DNA of 64,000 nt, from NCBI GenBank assembly GCA_900112915.1, contig FONK01000002.1, forward strand, positions 1 to 64,000, read 5' to 3'. The notes under the pieces are model-generated. The model was not told the DNA's origin, made no database searches, and worked only from the letters and a program-made list of their open reading frames with translations. Positions 13,263-27,724 of the stretch are shown piece after piece. Source of the DNA: Peptostreptococcaceae bacterium pGA-8 (GTDB taxonomy: Bacteria; Bacillota; Clostridia; Peptostreptococcales; Anaerovoracaceae). The position numbers were made by a program, and so were the translations under genes. Position 1 is the first letter of the stretch; each line of letters starts with the position of its first letter.

Positions 13263-13350
13263 TTGACTCAAAAAATAGACTTTGCATAATAGCGAAGTCT
13301 TACTTTAAACCTTAATACTGAATTAAAATTCAATATTATTCAATTTTGAA
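13263..13350 (+). promoter_or_regulatory. Promoter and operators of the ABC/ECF transport operon
   Basis: TTGACT (13263-13268) and CATAAT (13285-13290) are 16 bases apart. Downstream are two palindromes: TGAATTAAAATTCA (13319-13332) and TTCAATTTTGAA (13339-13350). The second shares the TTCAA-NN-TTGAA pattern of the tetR operator and overlaps the ribosome site. A hairpin GACTTTGC/GCGAAGTC lies at 13278-13299. Confidence 0.7.
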
Positions 13351-13363
13351 AGGAGAGTTGTTT

Positions 13364-15103
13364 ATGACAGAAAAAGAGTTAAGGGGAAAAGCGGTAGGTA
13401 ATAATTTGAAGTCAAATATATTACTTACTTTGAAAATACTGTTTGATTTAATACCGCAGGTATTACTTGTTTATGTAATCAGTTCCTTGATTACACAGAA
13501 TACAGAAACGGGAAAACTGAAGTATATTTTTTTCGCTATGCTTACATCATTTGTTCTAAAAGGCGTGTTTTATTATTTTTCTACCAAGATTGCTCATGAA
13601 AAGGCTTACGAAAAACTGACAGAACTCAGACTCTCTATCGTAGAACACTTAAAAAAATTAAGTTTAGGGTTTTTCAAAGAACACAATACAGGCGAACTTA
13701 CCAATATTATGCAGCATGATGTGGAGCAAGTGGAAGTATACCTTGCTCATGGTCTTCCTGAAATAATGGCAGTTACGCTTCTGCCTACCATTATTTTCAC
13801 AGCTATGATTTTTGTAGACTGGCGTCTTGCTCTTGGAATGATTGCCGGAGTTCCACTCATGTATTTGGTAAAAGTTCTTTCACAGAAAACAATGAATAAG
13901 AACTTTGCTATTTACTTTAACCATGAAAACAAGATGAGAGAAGAGCTAATGGAATATGTAAAAAATATCTCTGTGATTAAGGCTTTTGCTAAAGAAGAGG
14001 AGATTAGCGAAAGAACATTAAAGACAGCAAGGGAATATGTTTATTGGGTGAAAAAGAGCATGGGAGCAATTACAATTCCAATGGGACTCATTGACATATT
14101 TATGGAAATTGGAGTAGTTATTGTCATGATTTTGGGAAGTATATTTCTTTACTATGGAAATATTACAACACCTAATTTTATACTTGCCATTATTTTATCG
14201 TCTGCTTTTACTGCATCTATAAGTAAGACTGCTACATTGCAACATTTTTCTATTGTGTTTAAGGAAGCTCTAAAGGCGATTGGAAAAGTTTTAACAGTTC
14301 CGCTTCCAAGCAAAAAGACAGAACAGGATTTAGACTTTGGAAATATAGAGTTTAAAGATGTGAATTTTGCATACGGAAAAGATAGCTTTGAGCTTAAAAA
14401 TATCAACTTGATTTTTAAGAAAAATAGCTTAAATGCTTTTGTGGGAGCAAGCGGTTGTGGGAAAAGTACCGTATCTAATTTGCTTATGGGATTTTGGGAT
14501 GCAGATGAAGGACAAATACTGATAAATGGAAAAGACATAAAAGAATATAGTCAAGAAAACATCTCAATGCTGATTGGTAGTGTCGGGCAAGAAGTTATCC
14601 TTTTTGATTTAAGCATTTTTGAAAATATAGCAATTGGAAAATTAAATGCAACAAAAGAAGAAGTAATAGAAGCAGCTAAAAAAGCAAGATGCCATGATTT
14701 TATTTCAGCATTGCCAAATCAATATGAAACACGAGTAGGTGAAATGGGAGTTAAGTTATCCGGTGGAGAAAAACAAAGAATCTCCATTGCGAGAATGATA
14801 CTTAAAAATGCACCGATTTTAATATTAGATGAAGCAATGGCAGCTGTTGATAGTGAAAATGAAAGACTAATCGGCGAAGCAATTGACGATTTAAGCAAGG
14901 ATAAAACCATCATTACAATTGCTCATCATCTAAATACGATTAGAGATTCAGACCAAATTATAGTTATGGATAAGGGTGTTGTTCTTGATGCAGGAAGCCA
15001 TGAAGAGCTGATGAAAAGATGTGATTTTTATAAGGATATGGTTGAAGCACAGAACAAGGTAGATAGATGGAATTTGAAAGAGGTGGTAACAGAAAATGTT
15101 TAG
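13364..15103 (+). CDS. ABC transporter half-molecule 1 (membrane + ATPase)
   Basis: About 579 residues: a six-helix ABC type 1 membrane domain (residues ~20-310) followed by an ATPase domain. The ATPase has Walker A GASGCGKST, signature LSGGEKQRISIARM and Walker B ILILDEAMAAVD. The ATG at 13364 follows AAAGGAGAG; an upstream TTG (13346) is less likely. The stop overlaps the start of the next half-transporter by 8 bases, so the two most likely form a heterodimer. The pair resembles YbtP/YbtQ and IrtA/IrtB-like proteins, which are exporter-fold importers of metal chelates. That resemblance and the linked ECF genes make import possible, but direction cannot be settled from sequence. Confidence 0.9.
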   Translation: MTEKELRGKAVGNNLKSNILLTLKILFDLIPQVLLVYVISSLITQNTETGKLKYIFFAMLTSFVLKGVFYYFSTKIAHEKAYEKLTELRLSIVEHLKKLSLGFFKEHNTGELTNIMQHDVEQVEVYLAHGLPEIMAVTLLPTIIFTAMIFVDWRLALGMIAGVPLMYLVKVLSQKTMNKNFAIYFNHENKMREELMEYVKNISVIKAFAKEEEISERTLKTAREYVYWVKKSMGAITIPMGLIDIFMEIGVVIVMILGSIFLYYGNITTPNFILAIILSSAFTASISKTATLQHFSIVFKEALKAIGKVLTVPLPSKKTEQDLDFGNIEFKDVNFAYGKDSFELKNINLIFKKNSLNAFVGASGCGKSTVSNLLMGFWDADEGQILINGKDIKEYSQENISMLIGSVGQEVILFDLSIFENIAIGKLNATKEEVIEAAKKARCHDFISALPNQYETRVGEMGVKLSGGEKQRISIARMILKNAPILILDEAMAAVDSENERLIGEAIDDLSKDKTIITIAHHLNTIRDSDQIIVMDKGVVLDAGSHEELMKRCDFYKDMVEAQNKVDRWNLKEVVTENV

Positions 15104-16805
15104 AGGAATGTTAAAACTACTTACAAAAACCGGAAAGAGAGATTTGATTATATCAAGTGTATTCTTTGCCCTTTATGGACTAAGCTCCATAGCTATGATT
15201 GTTATTGTCTTTTCTATACTATTTCAGATATTTGATGGAACAAGTATAGAGAGTCTATATAAATATTTTATTGCGGTTGCACTCCTTGTTGTATTCAAAG
15301 GCATCTGTAATATGGTTGCAGATATGAAAAAGCATAGTGCTGGTTTTGATATTGTTCAGCAAATCAGAGAACGCATGATTATTAAATTAAAGAAATTCAG
15401 TTTGGGATTTTATACCAATGAAAGACTGGGAGAGATCAATACAATTTTACACAAAGATGTTGATAATATGTCCCTTGTTGTAGGACACATGTGGTCGAGA
15501 ATGTTTGGTGATTTTTTGATAGGTGCAGTCGTATTTGTTGGTCTTGAAAGTATTGATTTCAAACTTTCTATTATTATGGCTGTATCTGTTCCGATTGCAC
15601 TTATCTTTCTATATCTGACAATTAAGCAATCTGAAAAAATAGAAAATCAGAACAACTCAGCACTTCTTGATATGGTTAGCTTATTTGTTGAATATGTTAG
15701 AGGAATACCTGTACTAAAGAGTTTTTCAAACAATAAGAGCTTGGAGAATGAGCTTATGAATAAGACAAAGAAGTTTGGAGAAACAAGTAAATCAGCTTCA
15801 AGATTTAAGGCAAAACAATTATCTATATTTGGGTTTTTACTGGATATTGGATATTTGGTTCTTTTAATTGCAGGAGCAATACTTGTTATAAAAGGAAGTC
15901 TTGATGTACTTCATTTTATTATCTTTGCGGTAATTTCAAAAGAGTTTTATAAGCCGTTCGCTTCTATGGAACAACACTATATGTATTATGTTTCGGCGGT
16001 GGACAGTTATGAAAGACTTTCAAGAATTTTATATGCAGATGTAATACCGGATAAAGTGGATGGGATTGTTCCGAAAGATAATGATATAGCTTTTGAAAAC
16101 ATAGATTTTTCTTATGAAAAAGATGAATTTAAAATGGAAAAATTGAGCTTTTCTATTGCTGAAAAAACAATGACAGCCTTAGTTGGAGAATCAGGTAGTG
16201 GAAAGACTACTATAACCAACTTACTTCTAAGATTTTATGATGTGCATAAAGGGGAAATTACACTTGGAGGAACTGATATAAGGGATATTCCTTATGATGA
16301 GCTTTTAGATCGTATCAGCATTGTTATGCAGAATGTTCAGCTGTTTGATAATACGATTGAGGAAAATATCAGAGTAGGAAAAAAAGGGGCAACAAAAGAA
16401 GAAGTCATAGAAGCTGCAAAGAAAGCAAGAATCCATGATTTCATTATGAGTTTACCAAAAGGTTATGAAACTGATATTGGCGAAAATGGAGGAATTTTAT
16501 CAGGTGGACAAAGACAAAGAATATCTATTGCAAGAGCCTTTCTGAAAGATGCACCGATTTTAATTCTTGATGAAATGACAAGTAATGTTGATCCTATAAA
16601 TGAATCTTTGATACAAGATGCTATTACAGAGCTTGCAAAGAATAGAACTGTACTTGTAGTGGCTCACCATTTAAAAACAATTCAAAAAGCTGACCAAATT
16701 CTCGTATTTCAAAAAGGAAATTTACTTGAAAAAGGAAAGCATGGGGAACTTTTAGAGAAAGATGGGTACTACAAAAAATTATGGAAAGCTCAGTATGGGG
16801 TATAA
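15096..16805 (+). CDS. ABC transporter half-molecule 2 (membrane + ATPase)
   Basis: A 569-residue partner of the preceding protein: a six-helix membrane domain, then an ATPase with Walker A GESGSGKTT, signature LSGGQRQRISIARAF and Walker B ILILDEMTSNVD. Both Walker B motifs keep the catalytic Glu, so neither half looks like a degenerate site. It overlaps the preceding gene by 8 bases and its stop is 2 bases before the next ATG, so translation is tightly coupled through the cassette. Function is the same heterodimeric transporter as above. Confidence 0.9.
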   Translation: MFRGMLKLLTKTGKRDLIISSVFFALYGLSSIAMIVIVFSILFQIFDGTSIESLYKYFIAVALLVVFKGICNMVADMKKHSAGFDIVQQIRERMIIKLKKFSLGFYTNERLGEINTILHKDVDNMSLVVGHMWSRMFGDFLIGAVVFVGLESIDFKLSIIMAVSVPIALIFLYLTIKQSEKIENQNNSALLDMVSLFVEYVRGIPVLKSFSNNKSLENELMNKTKKFGETSKSASRFKAKQLSIFGFLLDIGYLVLLIAGAILVIKGSLDVLHFIIFAVISKEFYKPFASMEQHYMYYVSAVDSYERLSRILYADVIPDKVDGIVPKDNDIAFENIDFSYEKDEFKMEKLSFSIAEKTMTALVGESGSGKTTITNLLLRFYDVHKGEITLGGTDIRDIPYDELLDRISIVMQNVQLFDNTIEENIRVGKKGATKEEVIEAAKKARIHDFIMSLPKGYETDIGENGGILSGGQRQRISIARAFLKDAPILILDEMTSNVDPINESLIQDAITELAKNRTVLVVAHHLKTIQKADQILVFQKGNLLEKGKHGELLEKDGYYKKLWKAQYGV

Positions 16806-16807
16806 CC

Positions 16808-18325
16808 ATGATTTTGTTAAAAGATGTTTCTTATGAATGGGAAGATGGGGAAGTTGCTTTAAAAAATATCAATCTTGAAATTAAAAAAGGTGAATTTGTT
16901 TTAATTTCAGGGAAAAGTGGAAGTGGTAAAAGTACTCTTGGAAGTGTAATGAATGGTCTTATTCCACATTATTATAAAGGCAAAATGCAAGGAGAAGCCT
17001 TTGCGTCCGGAAAAGATATAAGCAAATTATTACTTCATGAAGTAGGGCATATTGTAGGGACTGTATTTCAAGATCCAAGAAGTCAGTTTTTCACGACAAC
17101 GACAGATGAAGAAATAGCTTTTGGGCTTCAAACTATCTGCAAATCAAGAGATGAAATCAAACAGAGAGTAGAAGAAGTATATGTGGAGTTGGATATTGAG
17201 GAACTGAAAGGAAAATCTGTTTTTGAATTATCAAGCGGGCAGAAACAAAAGATAGCTATTGCAAGCATCTATGCAATGAATCCGAAAGTTTTAATTTTAG
17301 ATGAGCCTTCAGCAAATTTGGATATGAAAGCAACATTTGACCTATTTTTAATTTTGGAAAAATTAAAGAAAAAAGGAACAACGGTTGTTCTAATTGAACA
17401 TCGTTTGTACTATGTAAAATCTTTATTTGACCGTTTTCTTTTGGTGAAAGATGGAGAAATTGCACAGGACTTGAGTCGGGAAGAAGTTATCCATCTTGAA
17501 GGGGAGTTTTGGGATGATAATGGACTAAGAACTCTTGAATTAGAAGAATACAGGATAAGTGAGAAGAAAGATTTATATCAATTAAATGATGAAAGTATCA
17601 GTGGGAAAGGCTTGAAATTTTGTTACCCAAGTGCAACTAAGGTTGGAAATAAGCAAAACCAATACATCTTAAATCATCTTGATTTCAATATGGAGTCCGG
17701 AAAAGCCATTGGTCTTATTGGGTTAAATGGTACCGGGAAAACTACTTTTGCAAGGGTAATTTCAGGACTTGAGAAGATAAAAGAGGGGAAAATATGGGTG
17801 GAAAAAGATAAAGAGTTGAATCGTAAAGATTTAATGGATATGTCATATTTTGTATTTCAGGATTCAGACTATCAGTTGTTTTCGGAAAGTGTACTTGATG
17901 AAATGCTGCTTGGTATTTCAAGTAAAGATAAAAAAGAAAATACCCAAAAGGCAAAGTCTATTTTGAATGTACTTGGCTTAGATAAATACATTGATAAGCA
18001 TCCATTTGCTTTATCAAGAGGAGAAAAACAAAGGCTGACAATAGCTTGCGGAATGATGAAACAGGCAAAAGTTTTTATCTATGATGAACCAACATCAGGT
18101 TGTGATAAAGACTCAATGCTTTCAGTGGCAAAACTGATTGAAGAACAATTAAAAAATGGGACAACAGTTTTGGTGATAAGTCATGATTTTGAGTTTTTAG
18201 CGAACACAGTGAGCAAGCTCTGGGTAATGGGAGATGGAAAAATAGAAGATGTTTTGAATATGAGTGAAAGTAATAAATTTCTCATATTAGACAAGATGAG
18301 AGGAGGTAGAGAGCTTGATAGATAG
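16808..18325 (+). CDS. ECF transporter energising subunit, fused A-A' ATPases
   Basis: About 505 residues with two complete ABC ATPase domains in one chain. Domain 1 has GKSGSGKST, ELSSGQKQKIAIA and VLILDEPSANLD. Domain 2 has GLNGTGKTT, ALSRGEKQRLTIA and VFIYDEPTSGCD. This is the fused EcfA-EcfA' layout that powers energy-coupling-factor importers. The ATG at 16808 is 2 bases after the previous stop; the longer frame from 16781 has no ribosome site. The 3' end overlaps ecfT by 11 bases. Confidence 0.88.
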   Translation: MILLKDVSYEWEDGEVALKNINLEIKKGEFVLISGKSGSGKSTLGSVMNGLIPHYYKGKMQGEAFASGKDISKLLLHEVGHIVGTVFQDPRSQFFTTTTDEEIAFGLQTICKSRDEIKQRVEEVYVELDIEELKGKSVFELSSGQKQKIAIASIYAMNPKVLILDEPSANLDMKATFDLFLILEKLKKKGTTVVLIEHRLYYVKSLFDRFLLVKDGEIAQDLSREEVIHLEGEFWDDNGLRTLELEEYRISEKKDLYQLNDESISGKGLKFCYPSATKVGNKQNQYILNHLDFNMESGKAIGLIGLNGTGKTTFARVISGLEKIKEGKIWVEKDKELNRKDLMDMSYFVFQDSDYQLFSESVLDEMLLGISSKDKKENTQKAKSILNVLGLDKYIDKHPFALSRGEKQRLTIACGMMKQAKVFIYDEPTSGCDKDSMLSVAKLIEEQLKNGTTVLVISHDFEFLANTVSKLWVMGDGKIEDVLNMSESNKFLILDKMRGGRELDR

Positions 18326-19019
18326 AAAAACAGTCGATCCGAGAATAAAACTTACTCTGCTTCCAATTGTTGGATTTACTAGCTTTTTTATAAGCGATAC
18401 AATTCTACTTTTCGGACTGATTGCCTTTGCCTTTTTTCTGTATGTATACAGCAGTATGTGGAAAAGAGCATTACGCTTTATTTTGTTTTTTGTGCTTTTA
18501 TACTGCATAGAGTTAGGGCTTGGAAAGTTCCTAGAAGCAAACATAGCATTTGCGATATATATGTTTATTTACTTTGCATCAAGAATGACATTAATCGCTA
18601 TGTTTGGTGGATATATAACAAAGACTACAAGTGTAAGTGAAATGCTTGAAGCATTAAATAGAATGAAAGTACCCAGAAGCATTGGTATCCCTTTTAGTGT
18701 TTTGCTTAGGTTTGTTCCAACTATAAAAATAGAAATTAAGGCATTAAAAGAGAATATGAAGATTCGAGGAATCGTAACAAGCAGATTTTTCCCGTTGCTA
18801 CATCCAATTAAATATATTGAATATACGCTTGTTCCGCTTTTAATGAGAATGATTAAGATTTCAGATGAATTGTCAGCTTCAGCACTCATTAGAGGACTTG
18901 ATAGTGGTGAGAATAGGGTAACATTAACAGAATTGCGGTTTAGATGGGCAGACTTAATGATTGGACTATTAGGAGCTTTGATAATTGCTCTTGTGATAGT
19001 AATACAGAGAACTTATTAG
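18315..19019 (+). CDS. ECF transporter transmembrane subunit EcfT
   Basis: A 234-residue membrane protein (cd16914/EcfT type) with 4-5 membrane segments in the first ~110 residues. It has two coupling motifs that contact the ATPases: KENMKIRGIVTS and SASALIRGLDSG (the paired RG motifs). The TTG at 18315 is the start, since AGGAGGTAG lies 6-9 bases upstream inside the end of the ATPase gene. It couples the dual ATPase to the S-component that follows. Confidence 0.87.
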   Translation: MIDRKTVDPRIKLTLLPIVGFTSFFISDTILLFGLIAFAFFLYVYSSMWKRALRFILFFVLLYCIELGLGKFLEANIAFAIYMFIYFASRMTLIAMFGGYITKTTSVSEMLEALNRMKVPRSIGIPFSVLLRFVPTIKIEIKALKENMKIRGIVTSRFFPLLHPIKYIEYTLVPLLMRMIKISDELSASALIRGLDSGENRVTLTELRFRWADLMIGLLGALIIALVIVIQRTY

Positions 19020-19029
19020 GAGGACTTTT

Positions 19030-19614
19030 ATGAAAAACAAATTAAATGGTCGTGATTTTATTACAATCGGAATTTTTAATGCAATTGGAATTGTCATATA
19101 CATGGCAGCCAGCTTTGCTATGGCAACAACAGTTATAGGAGGATTTATTGCTTCAGGAGTTAGCTTTATGGTAGCTGCCACCGTTTATATTCTTATGGCT
19201 GTAAAAGTTAAAAAGAAGGGTGTATTTACAATATCAGGAACGCTTCTTGGTTTAATTGCATTGTCAGGAGGACATTTGCCTCATGCAGTCTTTGCTGTAA
19301 TCGGTGGAATTATATGTGATTTGATTATAGGAAATTATGAGAGCAAGGGACGAATGATTATTGGATATGGGACATTTGCATTAGCAGATTTTTTAGGGAC
19401 AGTAATTCCTGTGATTTTATTCGGGACAGCTTCTTTTGTGGAAAGAGCATCAAAATGGAAAATGAGCGAAGCACAAATAAATGAAGCATTATCTTATTTC
19501 AAAGTTTCGTGGGTAGTAGGCTTTGCCTTAATAACCTTTGTTCTTGCTTGCATAGGAGCATTAGTTGCGACAAGGATACTTAAAAAACATTTTGAGAAAG
19601 CAGGAGTGATTTAA
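19030..19614 (+). CDS. ECF S-component, Trep_Strep (MptS-like) family
   Basis: A 194-residue protein with about five or six membrane segments, matching the Trep_Strep conserved membrane family (TIGR02185) of ECF substrate-binding subunits: GRDFITIGIFNAIGIVIYM, GGHLPHAVFAVIGG, YGTFALADFLGTVIPVILFG. Substrate of this family is not established. It completes a dedicated ECF transporter (AA', T, S in one operon) directly behind a heterodimeric ABC pair. The ATG follows TAGGAGG with good spacing. Confidence 0.85.
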   Translation: MKNKLNGRDFITIGIFNAIGIVIYMAASFAMATTVIGGFIASGVSFMVAATVYILMAVKVKKKGVFTISGTLLGLIALSGGHLPHAVFAVIGGIICDLIIGNYESKGRMIIGYGTFALADFLGTVIPVILFGTASFVERASKWKMSEAQINEALSYFKVSWVVGFALITFVLACIGALVATRILKKHFEKAGVI

Positions 19615-23391: not shown

Positions 23392-24855
23392 TTATCTAAC
23401 CTGATCAGGTTTCCAGAAGGATCTGGAAAATAGTACAGCTACAGCATATAGTTCAAGCCTTCCCAAAAGCATTAGAATGGCAGAAATTATTTTTCCGAAA
23501 TCAGAGAAGACTCCATAATTACCATCAGAAATTTCTCCAAGACCACTTCCGTTGTTTGAAATAGCTGAAAGGGCGGCAGTCAATGTAGTGGTCATATCTT
23601 TGTTTTCAAGAGAGAGCAACAATATGCCTCCGGCATACATTGTAAAGAACAGCATGATATAAACAGTTACAGCCGTTGCTGTGGAAGCCTTGACCGGGTT
23701 TCCTCCTAAAAGCACCGGCTTTATTGCTCTTGGATGAATTCTTTTATAAATTCCTCTAACTATAAGTTTAAATGATATCATTACTCTTATAGCCTTAAGA
23801 GAGCCTGAGGTTGAAAGGGAACATCCTCCCATTATCATTAAGAAGATTAAAACCGCCTGACATATTGTTGGCCATGTTGATATATTTGAGACTGAAAAGC
23901 CCGAAGTTGAGCCGAAGGAAACCACCTGAACGGTAGCAGCTCCAAGGGCATTAAATATATTGGTATAGGTTCCTGAATACCACAGTGCTCCACCACAAAT
24001 CAAAGAGCAAATCAGCAATATTAAAAGATAGCTTTTAACCTCAATATCCTTAAATGCTCTGGAGAATTGCCCTATATACATGAGAAAATACACCTTGAAG
24101 TTAATTGAAGCAAGTATTGAGAATAAGGTAATTACAGTCTTTGTATAAGGTGAGAAATTAAGAATAATTTCCCCTCTGGTATCGAAAATTCCGGAAGTGC
24201 TTACGGTACTCAATGTGTTAAGCAAGGCTTCAAAAAATCCCATATCACCTAAATTAAGCAAAATAAGTTCAATTAATGTCATTATAAGGTATATTTCGTA
24301 GGCAATCTTTGCAGTATCACTGATCCTTGCAGACATCTTAGTAAGCTCAGGGCCGGTAAGTTCAGAGGAAACAATGTTTTTTCCACCGACACCTAAAGCA
24401 GGGAAGATGCTTATTGTAAGCACTAAAATACCCATGCCTCCAAGCCAATTTGTTGTTGCCTTCCAAAGCATTAGAGATTTTGTCATTGAGCATGATGGAA
24501 TTACGTAAGAGCTTGTTGTAGTCCAGCCGGCAACGGACTCAAAGAAACAATCAGCCAAGGAATATCCTTCAATGGAAATTAAATAAGGAATTGATCCAAG
24601 CATAGACACGATTATCCAGCTTAAAAGGGCAATGATAAATCCTTCCCTTGAGGTTAGCTTGCGATTGTAATCTCTGAGCTTCTTAAAGAAAAAGATTCCA
24701 AAAGAAATTGAAACAAGTGAAAGCAGTATAAGAGGCCACATTACTTCTGTTTCATGGTACTTAAAGGCCGCAAGCCAGGAAGGAATCATGGCTACACCTT
24801 CAAATAACAATATGAAAGATATGGTTTTTAATATGATTTTGTAATTAAAGTTCAT
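23392..24855 (-). CDS. trkH: TrkH-type cation transporter with Ser in filter position 1
   Basis: A 487-residue protein with the four-fold M1-P-M2 architecture of TrkH/KtrB. The filter regions read TTTSSY (S115 instead of Gly), STSGIF, STSGFS and NNGSGLG. The first filter Gly is therefore Ser while the others keep Gly; the upstream paralogue has Gly at the same residue number. Ser at this position marks Na+-permeable class 1 HKT proteins in plants, so ion selectivity may differ. It is the last gene of trkA-trkH-trkH, 19 bases after its paralogue. TrkH channels are gated by TrkA. Confidence 0.88.
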   Translation of the reverse strand: MNFNYKIILKTISFILLFEGVAMIPSWLAAFKYHETEVMWPLILLSLVSISFGIFFFKKLRDYNRKLTSREGFIIALLSWIIVSMLGSIPYLISIEGYSLADCFFESVAGWTTTSSYVIPSCSMTKSLMLWKATTNWLGGMGILVLTISIFPALGVGGKNIVSSELTGPELTKMSARISDTAKIAYEIYLIMTLIELILLNLGDMGFFEALLNTLSTVSTSGIFDTRGEIILNFSPYTKTVITLFSILASINFKVYFLMYIGQFSRAFKDIEVKSYLLILLICSLICGGALWYSGTYTNIFNALGAATVQVVSFGSTSGFSVSNISTWPTICQAVLIFLMIMGGCSLSTSGSLKAIRVMISFKLIVRGIYKRIHPRAIKPVLLGGNPVKASTATAVTVYIMLFFTMYAGGILLLSLENKDMTTTLTAALSAISNNGSGLGEISDGNYGVFSDFGKIISAILMLLGRLELYAVAVLFSRSFWKPDQVR

Positions 24856-24874
24856 AAATATCTCCCCTTAAACG

Positions 24875-26338
24875 CTAGGCCTTATTAGAATTATAGTAAT
24901 GAGGTGAAAACAGCATAAACAGAGTGAAAAGCTCCAATCTTCCGGCAATCATTATGATGCTTAGAACAAGCTTTGAAAAATCTGAAAAAATACTGAAATT
25001 CATTGTAGGTCCAACAAGGTTAAATCCGGGACCTATATTTCCAATACAGGTTAAAACTGCAGAAAATGAAGTCAGTATATCGAAATTATTCAGGCTGACA
25101 AGGAGTGTTCCCACAATAATGGTGGCAATATACATAAAAATGAAATTAGCTATATTGGAAGCGGTTTCCTGCTGGATTTCTCTGTCTCCGATGCTGATTT
25201 CGTATAGTCTGTTAGGGTGAAGTATTTTATTAATTCCCTTTTTGATAAATTTAGCAGCTACAACAATTCTTATAACCTTGACACCACCCCCGGTGGAGGA
25301 AGATGACGCACCGACAAACATGAGCAGAAAAATTAAAATCTTCGCAAAGGTTGGCCAAATATCAAAATCATAGGTCATATATCCTGTAGTTGTAATCACT
25401 GCAACAACTTGAAAGGTTGCATCGGTTACAGCCTTAAATATACTGTGCTCATATCCGATGATCAGAATATAAGCTGCAATTGCCAGTGAGAATATGGCAA
25501 TAATGCTTAGATAGGTTCTCAGCTCTATATCCTCCAGGGCGGCTTTAATGCTTTGTTTAAAGGCAATAAAATACAAGTTGAAGTTAATTCCGCAAAGGGT
25601 CATAAATATAATGATAACCCAGTGAATGTAAGGACTACGGAAGTGGGCAATACTGTTATTGTAGTTTGAAAAACCACCGGTTCCAACTGTTCCAAAGGTT
25701 TGAACAAGGGCATCATATAACGATAAGCCACCCAGCATAAGCAAAACAGCTTCTATTATAGTAAAAACAAAATAGAGAACATAAAGGTTTCTTGCTGTAT
25801 CAGAAAATCTGGGCGTCAATTTATCTAAGGTAGGACCGGGAGTTTCTGCGCTGGCGATTAGCTGTCCCTTAACGCCGCTTTCTAAAAATATCATAGCAAA
25901 AACTATAATTCCCATACCACCAAGCCAGTGAGTAAATGAACGCCAAAAAAGCATTGATTTAGGCAAACCTTCAATTTCTGTTAATATGGTCGAGCCGGTA
26001 GTTGAATAGCCTGAGCACATTTCAAAGAAAGCGTCAAAGTAATTTGGAATTGTACCTGAAATAACAAAGGGAAGTGCAGACACCAAAGAAGAAATGATCC
26101 ACGTTAAAGATACAATAAGAAATCCGTCTCTGGCCTTAAGCTTGGTCAGTGAAGGATTTTTTAAGTGAAACAAAACCACACCTAAAATTAAGCAGGGGAT
26201 AATAACCTTGAAAAATGTTTTAATTTCAAAGATTTCCTTATAGTAAAAACCGACGATAACCGGCAGTAGCATAGCCACAGCCAGTATCATCAGCATTATT
26301 CCCAGTACTTTAATTACACCATGAAAATTTATTGTCAT
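24875..26338 (-). CDS. trkH: TrkH-type potassium channel subunit
   Basis: A 487-residue TrkH/KtrB-family protein with four P-loops and intact Gly filters: TTGSTI (G115), TGGFSN, TTTGYM and NIGPGF. It should be the K+-selective subunit. The WLGGMGI segment after the first P-loop is shared with the second copy. It lies between trkA and the second trkH with gaps of about 20 bases, so all three are one transcript. It is equal in length to its neighbour, and the two are clearly a duplicated but diverged pair. Confidence 0.92.
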   Translation of the reverse strand: MTINFHGVIKVLGIMLMILAVAMLLPVIVGFYYKEIFEIKTFFKVIIPCLILGVVLFHLKNPSLTKLKARDGFLIVSLTWIISSLVSALPFVISGTIPNYFDAFFEMCSGYSTTGSTILTEIEGLPKSMLFWRSFTHWLGGMGIIVFAMIFLESGVKGQLIASAETPGPTLDKLTPRFSDTARNLYVLYFVFTIIEAVLLMLGGLSLYDALVQTFGTVGTGGFSNYNNSIAHFRSPYIHWVIIIFMTLCGINFNLYFIAFKQSIKAALEDIELRTYLSIIAIFSLAIAAYILIIGYEHSIFKAVTDATFQVVAVITTTGYMTYDFDIWPTFAKILIFLLMFVGASSSSTGGGVKVIRIVVAAKFIKKGINKILHPNRLYEISIGDREIQQETASNIANFIFMYIATIIVGTLLVSLNNFDILTSFSAVLTCIGNIGPGFNLVGPTMNFSIFSDFSKLVLSIIMIAGRLELFTLFMLFSPHYYNSNKA

Positions 26339-26362: not shown

Positions 26363-27724
26363 TTATAGAAGATTCTTATTCTTCTTCTTTAAAATCTTCT
26401 CCAAATCGCCTATTTCGCTAAGCAGGCTCAGAATAATCACCTTATCACCGGGCAAAATATTAGTATCGCCACTTGGAATAATTACCTTATTTCCACGGTG
26501 AATAGCTGCAATCAGCACGCCTTCAGGAAGGGGAAGCTTACTAATTGGAGTGTTAACCATGCACATATAGGGTTGAGCTATTATTTCCATAATCTCCGCC
26601 TGTCCCTGAATAAGAACCGTAGAAATGATTTTTTTGTTACCCTGTATAAAGGTAAGAATATTGCTTGCAGTAATATCAAGAGGGTTAAGGACCATGTCAA
26701 CACCCATAGCCTCAATCAGACCGGAGTAGCTATTGTGGCTAACCTTGGATATAACATCTTTAATCCCACGCTGTTTAGCTGTCAATGCCAACAAAAGATT
26801 TTCTTCGTCATAGCCTGTAGCTGTTACAAAAGCGTCCATGCTGTCCATGTTTTCATCTTCAAGAAGAGCTACATCAGTACCATCACCATGAAGAACCATA
26901 ACATTTTTCAAATGAGTAGCAAGGTAGTGACAGCGTTCTTTGTCCTTCTCGACAATCTTAACAGATGCTCCGAATTCAGAAAGCTTATGAGCCAAGTAAT
27001 AACCGGTTTTACCACCGCCAATCAGCATTACCTTCTGAAGATTGGTAAATTCACCTTTTTCATGAACCTGTTCATTTAAAGCAAAAATTTCCTCTTTTTC
27101 ACCTGCTACATATAGAAAGTCATCAGCATCTACGATATCTTCCCCATGGGGAATAATAATCTTTCCTTTTTTAGACAGGGCGACTACCAGCATATTGGGC
27201 AGCTGCTCTCTAACCTGAATCATATTTTTTCCAACCAGCTTCGGATATTTGATGCCTTTAAATTCAAGAAGTGAAAACTTCCCGGTAGTAAAAATACCAT
27301 TGCTTAAAGTGTATTTTTCTGCAAGATATTTGTAAATTTCATTTGTAATTGCCAAATCAGGATTAACTACCATGTCAATGCCAAGCTTTTCTTTAATAAA
27401 TCCAAGCTGATTCATATGCTCAGGGTCACGTACTCTTGCGATTACATTTTTGCAGCCAAGGTTTTTAGCAAACATGGAAATCATAATATTGGTTTCATCG
27501 CTATCGGTTGCCGCAATCAAAAAATCAAAGCTTTGGATTTGAATATCATTTAAGACTTTAATAGCTCTGGCATCTTCGTTTACGGTCATAACATCAAGAT
27601 GCTGGCTAAGCCTGTTCAGAACTACGGGATTCTTATCTATAATCGTAATGGCGTAATCGCCCTCCATGAGAGCCTCAGCCACTCTAAGTCCCAGCTTGCC
27701 GGCGCCTATAATTGCAACATTCAT
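26363..27724 (-). CDS. trkA: TrkA, K+ uptake regulatory subunit with two RCK units
   Basis: 453 residues with two Rossmann RCK_N domains, GAGKLGLRVAEAL near the N-terminus (with acidic IIDKN after strand 2) and GGGKTGYYLAHKL near residue 236. Each is followed by an RCK_C domain. It binds NAD(H)/nucleotides and gates TrkH. It is first in the operon, ahead of two trkH genes, so a single TrkA could serve both channels. The ATG at 27724 (minus strand) has an AAGGATG site. Confidence 0.93.
   Translation of the reverse strand: MNVAIIGAGKLGLRVAEALMEGDYAITIIDKNPVVLNRLSQHLDVMTVNEDARAIKVLNDIQIQSFDFLIAATDSDETNIMISMFAKNLGCKNVIARVRDPEHMNQLGFIKEKLGIDMVVNPDLAITNEIYKYLAEKYTLSNGIFTTGKFSLLEFKGIKYPKLVGKNMIQVREQLPNMLVVALSKKGKIIIPHGEDIVDADDFLYVAGEKEEIFALNEQVHEKGEFTNLQKVMLIGGGKTGYYLAHKLSEFGASVKIVEKDKERCHYLATHLKNVMVLHGDGTDVALLEDENMDSMDAFVTATGYDEENLLLALTAKQRGIKDVISKVSHNSYSGLIEAMGVDMVLNPLDITASNILTFIQGNKKIISTVLIQGQAEIMEIIAQPYMCMVNTPISKLPLPEGVLIAAIHRGNKVIIPSGDTNILPGDKVIILSLLSEIGDLEKILKKKNKNLL

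Follow-up and report, generated by a model that had tools for sequence, protein, structure and literature searches.

In V. parahaemolyticus, the TrkH-TrkA system (PDB: 3pjz, 4j9u, 6v4j-l) has one TrkH per system, whose selectivity filter carries a glycine in each of its four P-loops (GGGG). TrkA residues Asp44, Asp286 and Glu293 pair with Arg177, Arg379 and His377 of TrkH, the contact between the D3-D4 loop and TrkA is intact in the ADP-bound as well as in the ATP-bound structures, and the dimer interface is formed by D3M2b with D4M1 (PMC6987127). Even with its GGGG filter, TrkH was found to have only a slight selectivity for K+ (PMC6987127). E. coli has two channels of the TrkH type, TrkG and TrkH. 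TrkG mediates Na+-activated K+ uptake and also Na+ uptake, and its Na+ dependence was tied to acidic residues beside the filter, with a filter serine not involved (PMC9898762).

The KtrAB systems belong to the same superfamily and share the filter glycine positions, with one RCK domain per KtrA chain. In the class I HKT proteins of plants (SGGG, e.g. AtHKT1;1) the first filter glycine is replaced by a serine, which is fixed in whole clades, and the other three glycines are conserved. We know of no TrkA or RCK partner for HKT in plants. The Ser/Gly filter rule of plants has exceptions (PMC7918770).

The trkA-trkH1-trkH2 operon

The locus lies within a window of 64 kb, by which we mean the whole stretch of DNA that was analysed, and consists of three genes on the minus strand in the operon order trkA-trkH1-trkH2. 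The trkA gene (26363..27724) encodes an RCK regulator of 453 aa with two TrkA_N/TrkA_C repeats (Pfam: PF02254, E=1.7e-55; PF02080; NCBIfam: TrkA), and its product matches the TrkA of 4j9u in a PDB search. The trkH1 gene (24875..26338) begins 24 bp past trkA and trkH2 (23392..24855) begins 19 bp past trkH1. Both encode proteins of 487 aa that match the TrkH family (Pfam: PF02386) and the solved V. parahaemolyticus TrkH (3pjz) over their full length. TrkH1, a canonical TrkH with a GGGG filter, does so with E=1.9e-61 and E=4e-85, respectively, and TrkH2, a diverged paralog with an SGGG filter, with E=7.5e-40 and E=6e-67. Both pass the PF02386 cut-off but do not reach that of the NCBIfam subfamily TIGR00933. 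Their common length is uninformative, as relatives span about 480 to 520 aa.

The genome (1.78 Mb in 24 contigs, 99.96% complete) contains no further TrkH or KtrB besides TrkH1 and TrkH2, and no KdpA, Kup or two-TM K+ channel (Ion_trans_2) genes were detected in it. KimA proteins are about 600 aa long; the sole amino-acid-permease-type gene of the genome is too short for such an importer (469 aa from stop to stop), which is excluded by ORF length only. The operon is the only K+ uptake system detected in this genome, and TrkH1 is therefore very likely its main K+ channel. No known riboswitch was found near the operon within the window, and promoter and terminator scans of the operon gave signals near background. 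Elsewhere in the window (13346-19614), genes for two ABC exporter half-proteins and, behind them, for an ECF-type ATPase, a CbiQ-like T component and a Trep_Strep membrane protein appear to make up another operon.

The locus resembles the V. parahaemolyticus system in fold, in the four P-loops, the intramembrane loop and the gate arginine, and in a TrkA with conserved contacts, but it has a second TrkH in which the first filter glycine is missing and the filter flanks are altered. Unlike in E. coli, trkA is immediately followed by both channel genes in a single operon, and these stem from an old, family-wide duplication. TrkA has two RCK domains per chain here, in contrast to the single one of KtrA, and TrkH2 is nearer to TrkH in sequence and fold.

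Filter, gate and TrkA contacts of the two channels

As described in the earlier note, the two 487-residue proteins align without a gap at the first P-loop. Residue 115 of both falls on Gly113 of the V. parahaemolyticus protein (Vp). In TrkH1 this residue is Gly115 (codon at 25994..25996, minus strand) within the motif STTGST, and in TrkH2 it is Ser115 within TTTSSY, encoded by AGC on the complement of 24511..24513, exactly where the earlier note had placed it. The alignment to 3pjz likewise bears out the assignment of GGGG and SGGG filters and puts no glycine at the filter position of loop 1 in TrkH2. An alignment slip hiding a glycine was ruled out, with loop 1 ungapped against 3pjz as well as across 128 full-length rows.

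The remaining filter glycines, 222, 319 and 436 in both proteins, correspond to Vp 222, 322 and 439, so that TrkH1 has glycine in all four filter loops and TrkH2 in loops 2-4. In TrkH2, Gly222 (24190..24192, minus strand, as for all following codons) is preceded by Ser and not by Gly, Gly319 is encoded at 23899..23901, and at Gly436 (23548..23550) the Pro of the GPG is lost. The gating arginine, Vp Arg468, is present as Arg467 in TrkH1 and Arg466 in TrkH2 (23458..23460), and the S-T-x-G intramembrane loop is found in both. Judged by the sequence, the serine in loop 1 weakens the label of a canonical K+-selective TrkH for TrkH2, not its membership in the family.

TrkA of the window keeps the contact residues Asp44, Asp286 and Glu293 of Vp TrkA. 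On the channel side, TrkH2 has both canonical residues of the TrkA HN2 contact (His374-Pro-Arg376, 23728..23736; Vp His377/Arg379), and TrkH1 has His374 together with Asn376. Binding of TrkH2 to TrkA is thus predicted by sequence comparison, from the shared operon and the conserved contact residues.

The AlphaFold model of TrkH2, built from six sequences (mean pLDDT 70.6, pTM 0.78), is too imprecise for filter geometry. In a Foldseek comparison with the PDB it ranked closest to TrkH (TM up to 0.83), followed by KtrB and then by plant HKT with about 0.5. The predicted fold of TrkH2 is that of an ordinary TrkH.

TrkH1 (24875-26338) has a Glu at P1+6 and an Asp at P3+5, like the Na+-activation residues of E. 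coli TrkG, and TrkH2 has neither. By analogy, TrkH1 itself may be Na+-activated.

Age and variation of the second copies

The search covered 61 relatives and 198 genomes from the order, and about 80 loci were read. Most members of the family (f1) have the gene order trkA-trkH-trkH, and the other families of the order have mostly one trkH. In a tree of 68 proteins that was built without the filter columns, TrkH1 belongs to the H1 group and all second copies, including TrkH2, form one clade (H2; UFBoot 100 / SH-aLRT 98). A quick tree of 128 rows agrees with this single clade. The recurring gene order and the single second-copy clade indicate that the duplication is old, and a recent duplication in this species was ruled out by the age of the clade. 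We infer that trkH was duplicated once, close to the base of the family, and that either copy was later lost in some lineages. An H2-clade gene is found alone beside trkA in four genomes (G018, G156, G024 and G005) and an H1-type gene alone in one (G151).

Outside of the family-wide pair there are small separate trkH duplications. One example is G177, from another family of the order, which has an independent tandem duplication. In its downstream copy and in a relative from G059 (loci L138:565-2055 and L031:1289-2911) an Ala replaces the third filter glycine (STTALN, SSTAMT), so again one filter glycine is lost in a second copy. The second copy of G167 (L106:4486-5733), with 415 aa, directly abuts trkH1, sits on a branch as long as 3.3 changes per column and may be decaying. 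In G266 (L241:2893-7254), a distant member of the phylum, three tandem KtrB-like genes are present as separate ORFs of 455-461 aa, adjoining a gene which resembles a glycine-betaine (ProV-type) ABC ATPase.

The earlier note had proposed a survey of residue 115 among TrkH proteins. Among the 53 proteins of the second-copy clade, 41 have Gly at this first filter position, 8 have Ser, 3 Asn and 1 Tyr. The position is Gly in all 45 paired first copies, in all 29 single or other copies and in 99/99 readable sequences of a phylum survey, a sample which leans towards well-scoring matches. A residue other than Gly is therefore found in 12 of 53 second copies versus 0 of 74 other TrkH proteins (Fisher p = 1.2e-5), or versus 0 of 173 with the phylum survey added (p = 1e-8), both values being indicative only for such related sequences. 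Within our sample, loss of the first glycine is confined to the second-copy clade, where it arose at least 6-7 times; the trees require 7-8 changes, all of them inside this clade. Since the second copies of the same genus (L062-L065) keep Gly in 4/4 cases, Ser115 is lineage-specific. The literature searched contained nothing on G113S or G70S and no paper describing the trkA-trkH1-trkH2 operon or variation at the first filter position.

The other functional positions are kept in the second-copy clade: Vp Gly222 in 52/52 (one row gapped) and Gly322, Gly439, Arg468 and His377 in 53/53 each. Changes are found in the filter flanks, where Gly221 is lost in 33/53, mostly for Ala or Ser, Thr321 is mostly replaced by Ser and Ile/Val438 mostly by Thr or Asn, and none of the 53 proteins has Pro440. 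When both copies are compared in the same 45 genomes, the ratio of H2 to H1 divergence is highest in P2 (1.61x), P1 and D1M2 (1.49x) and P4 (1.31x) and lowest in D3M2b (0.92x) and the TrkA-binding D3-D4 loop (0.93x). Overall the second copies evolve faster, with a mean between-genome identity of 37% vs 46% for H1, and H2 is deeper in 43 of the 45 genomes. P1+6 is acidic in 37/45 H1 vs 11/53 H2 proteins and P3+5 in 35/45 vs 28/53; H1 is thus the more TrkG-like copy at these sites, which speaks against a simple scheme in which H2 alone is linked to Na+.

The dN/dS of second copies in close pairs is 0.04-0.09, similar to that of first copies, and amounts to 0.05 and 0.04 in two pairs of Ser-type second copies. 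The second copies are thus under strong purifying selection. A pseudogene or frame error was ruled out for trkH2 by its intact ORF and the low dN/dS. The fixed glycines 2-4, gate arginine and TrkA-contact histidine, together with the low dN/dS, suggest that TrkH2 is a working channel and not a pseudogene or a dead subunit, and so does the presence of such genes alone beside trkA in several genomes. It appears to be retained for a function which needs TrkA, the gate and the pore.

In G018 (L242:7084-9944, G018:C4), the only trkH gene behind trkA belongs to the second-copy clade and encodes a Ser at the first filter position, and no first-copy remnant is present at the locus. No other K+ importer was detected in this genome, which is only about 90% complete and in which a KimA-type importer is excluded by ORF length only. 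Because the only detected K+ importer of G018 is of the Ser type, it can be argued that Ser-type proteins still carry K+, and G018 offers a naturally occurring test of the Ser filter.

Possible roles of TrkH2

On balance, TrkH2 is probably a further cation channel gated by TrkA, less selective for K+ or of lower K+ affinity, and its gene goes back to an old duplication within the operon. A single trkH duplication, close to the base of the family, would have given rise to it, and the copy would have been retained as an additional channel of this TrkA, which, closed with ADP and open with ATP, would gate both TrkH1 and TrkH2. TrkH1 would be the main K+ pathway. In the second copies the first filter position would tolerate Ser, Asn or Tyr as well as Gly, and the filter of TrkH2 may bind K+ less tightly or separate K+ from Na+ less well, so that the protein could serve as a TrkA-gated path of low affinity or low selectivity for bulk K+ uptake and control of the membrane potential. 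Ser115 would be one lineage-specific step in this relaxation of the filter rather than a change to a channel specific for Na+, although a permeability of TrkH2 to Na+ beside K+ is possible.

The earlier note had proposed that one TrkA gates a K+ channel and a diverged, perhaps Na+-conducting, channel. Its first part agrees with our analysis, as one TrkA appears to serve two TrkH-type channels, the second diverged in the pore with contacts, gate and three of four glycines kept. A TrkA-gated Na+ channel paired with a K+ channel, as a bacterial counterpart to the class I HKT of plants, is however unlikely. Residue and position are both as in plant class I, only the first filter glycine varies with P2-P4 fixed, as in plants (PMC7918770), and E. 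coli TrkG shows that a Trk paralog can be capable of Na+ uptake (PMC9898762). The serine fails as a marker of a Na+ class, since the first glycine was replaced at least 6-7 separate times, by Ser, Asn or Tyr, in a clade which mostly has Gly, and the same-genus proteins all have Gly; in plants, by comparison, the serine is fixed in whole clades. Furthermore, the only detected K+ importer of G018 is of the Ser type, K+ selectivity is slight even in a TrkH with a GGGG filter (PMC6987127), E. coli TrkG takes up Na+ too (PMC9898762), and exceptions to the plant rule exist (PMC7918770).

It is likewise doubtful that TrkH2 is mainly a structural or regulatory subunit, which would conduct little by itself and would modulate gating as part of a heterodimer with TrkH1 on a single TrkA ring. 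Such a role would fit the shared operon, the best conservation relative to H1 in D3M2b (part of the dimer interface and the gate) and in the D3-D4 TrkA loop with the strongest divergence in the pore loops, and the occurrence of Asn or Tyr at the first filter position. The last of these, together with the faster evolution of H2, counts against a second channel, as both could also fit a subunit in which conduction is less important. Three invariant filter glycines and an invariant gate arginine would nevertheless be unexpected in a non-conducting subunit, and pairing is not obligatory in the genomes with H2 or H1 only. These genomes rule out an obligate TrkH1/TrkH2 heterodimer; as either paralog occurs alone in some relatives, TrkH homodimers are likely, and mixed dimers are possible. 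Very improbable, finally, is an ordinary redundant paralog that has no particular ion preference and whose changes, Ser115 included, reflect near-neutral drift. Faster evolution of H2 and the restriction of Ser to this species within its genus would be expected from drift, but the gene is kept across most of the family with low dN/dS, the flanks changed in concert across the clade (Gly221 to Ser or Ala, Thr321 to Ser, loss of Pro440) and the first glycine was lost in the second-copy clade only.

Going back to the second TrkA-gated channel of weaker K+ selectivity or affinity, the observation is more interesting than a single substitution because a whole clade of second copies repeatedly loses the same filter glycine, at the position thought to set the choice between Na+ and K+ in plant HKT. 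The result is a natural series of TrkH proteins with Gly, Ser, Asn or Tyr at this position, with the same kind of TrkA partner and mostly with the canonical paralog alongside as a control. It makes testable whether Ser at the first filter position sets selectivity in bacterial TrkH, and it also bears on why a cell keeps two channels under one regulator. A bolder and rather unlikely possibility is that the family has evolved a TrkA-gated pair of different ion preference, with the second channel repeatedly converging on SGGG and conducting Na+ as well as K+. If this were true, a single nucleotide-sensing regulator would control K+ uptake and, alongside it, the entry of Na+ or the membrane potential.
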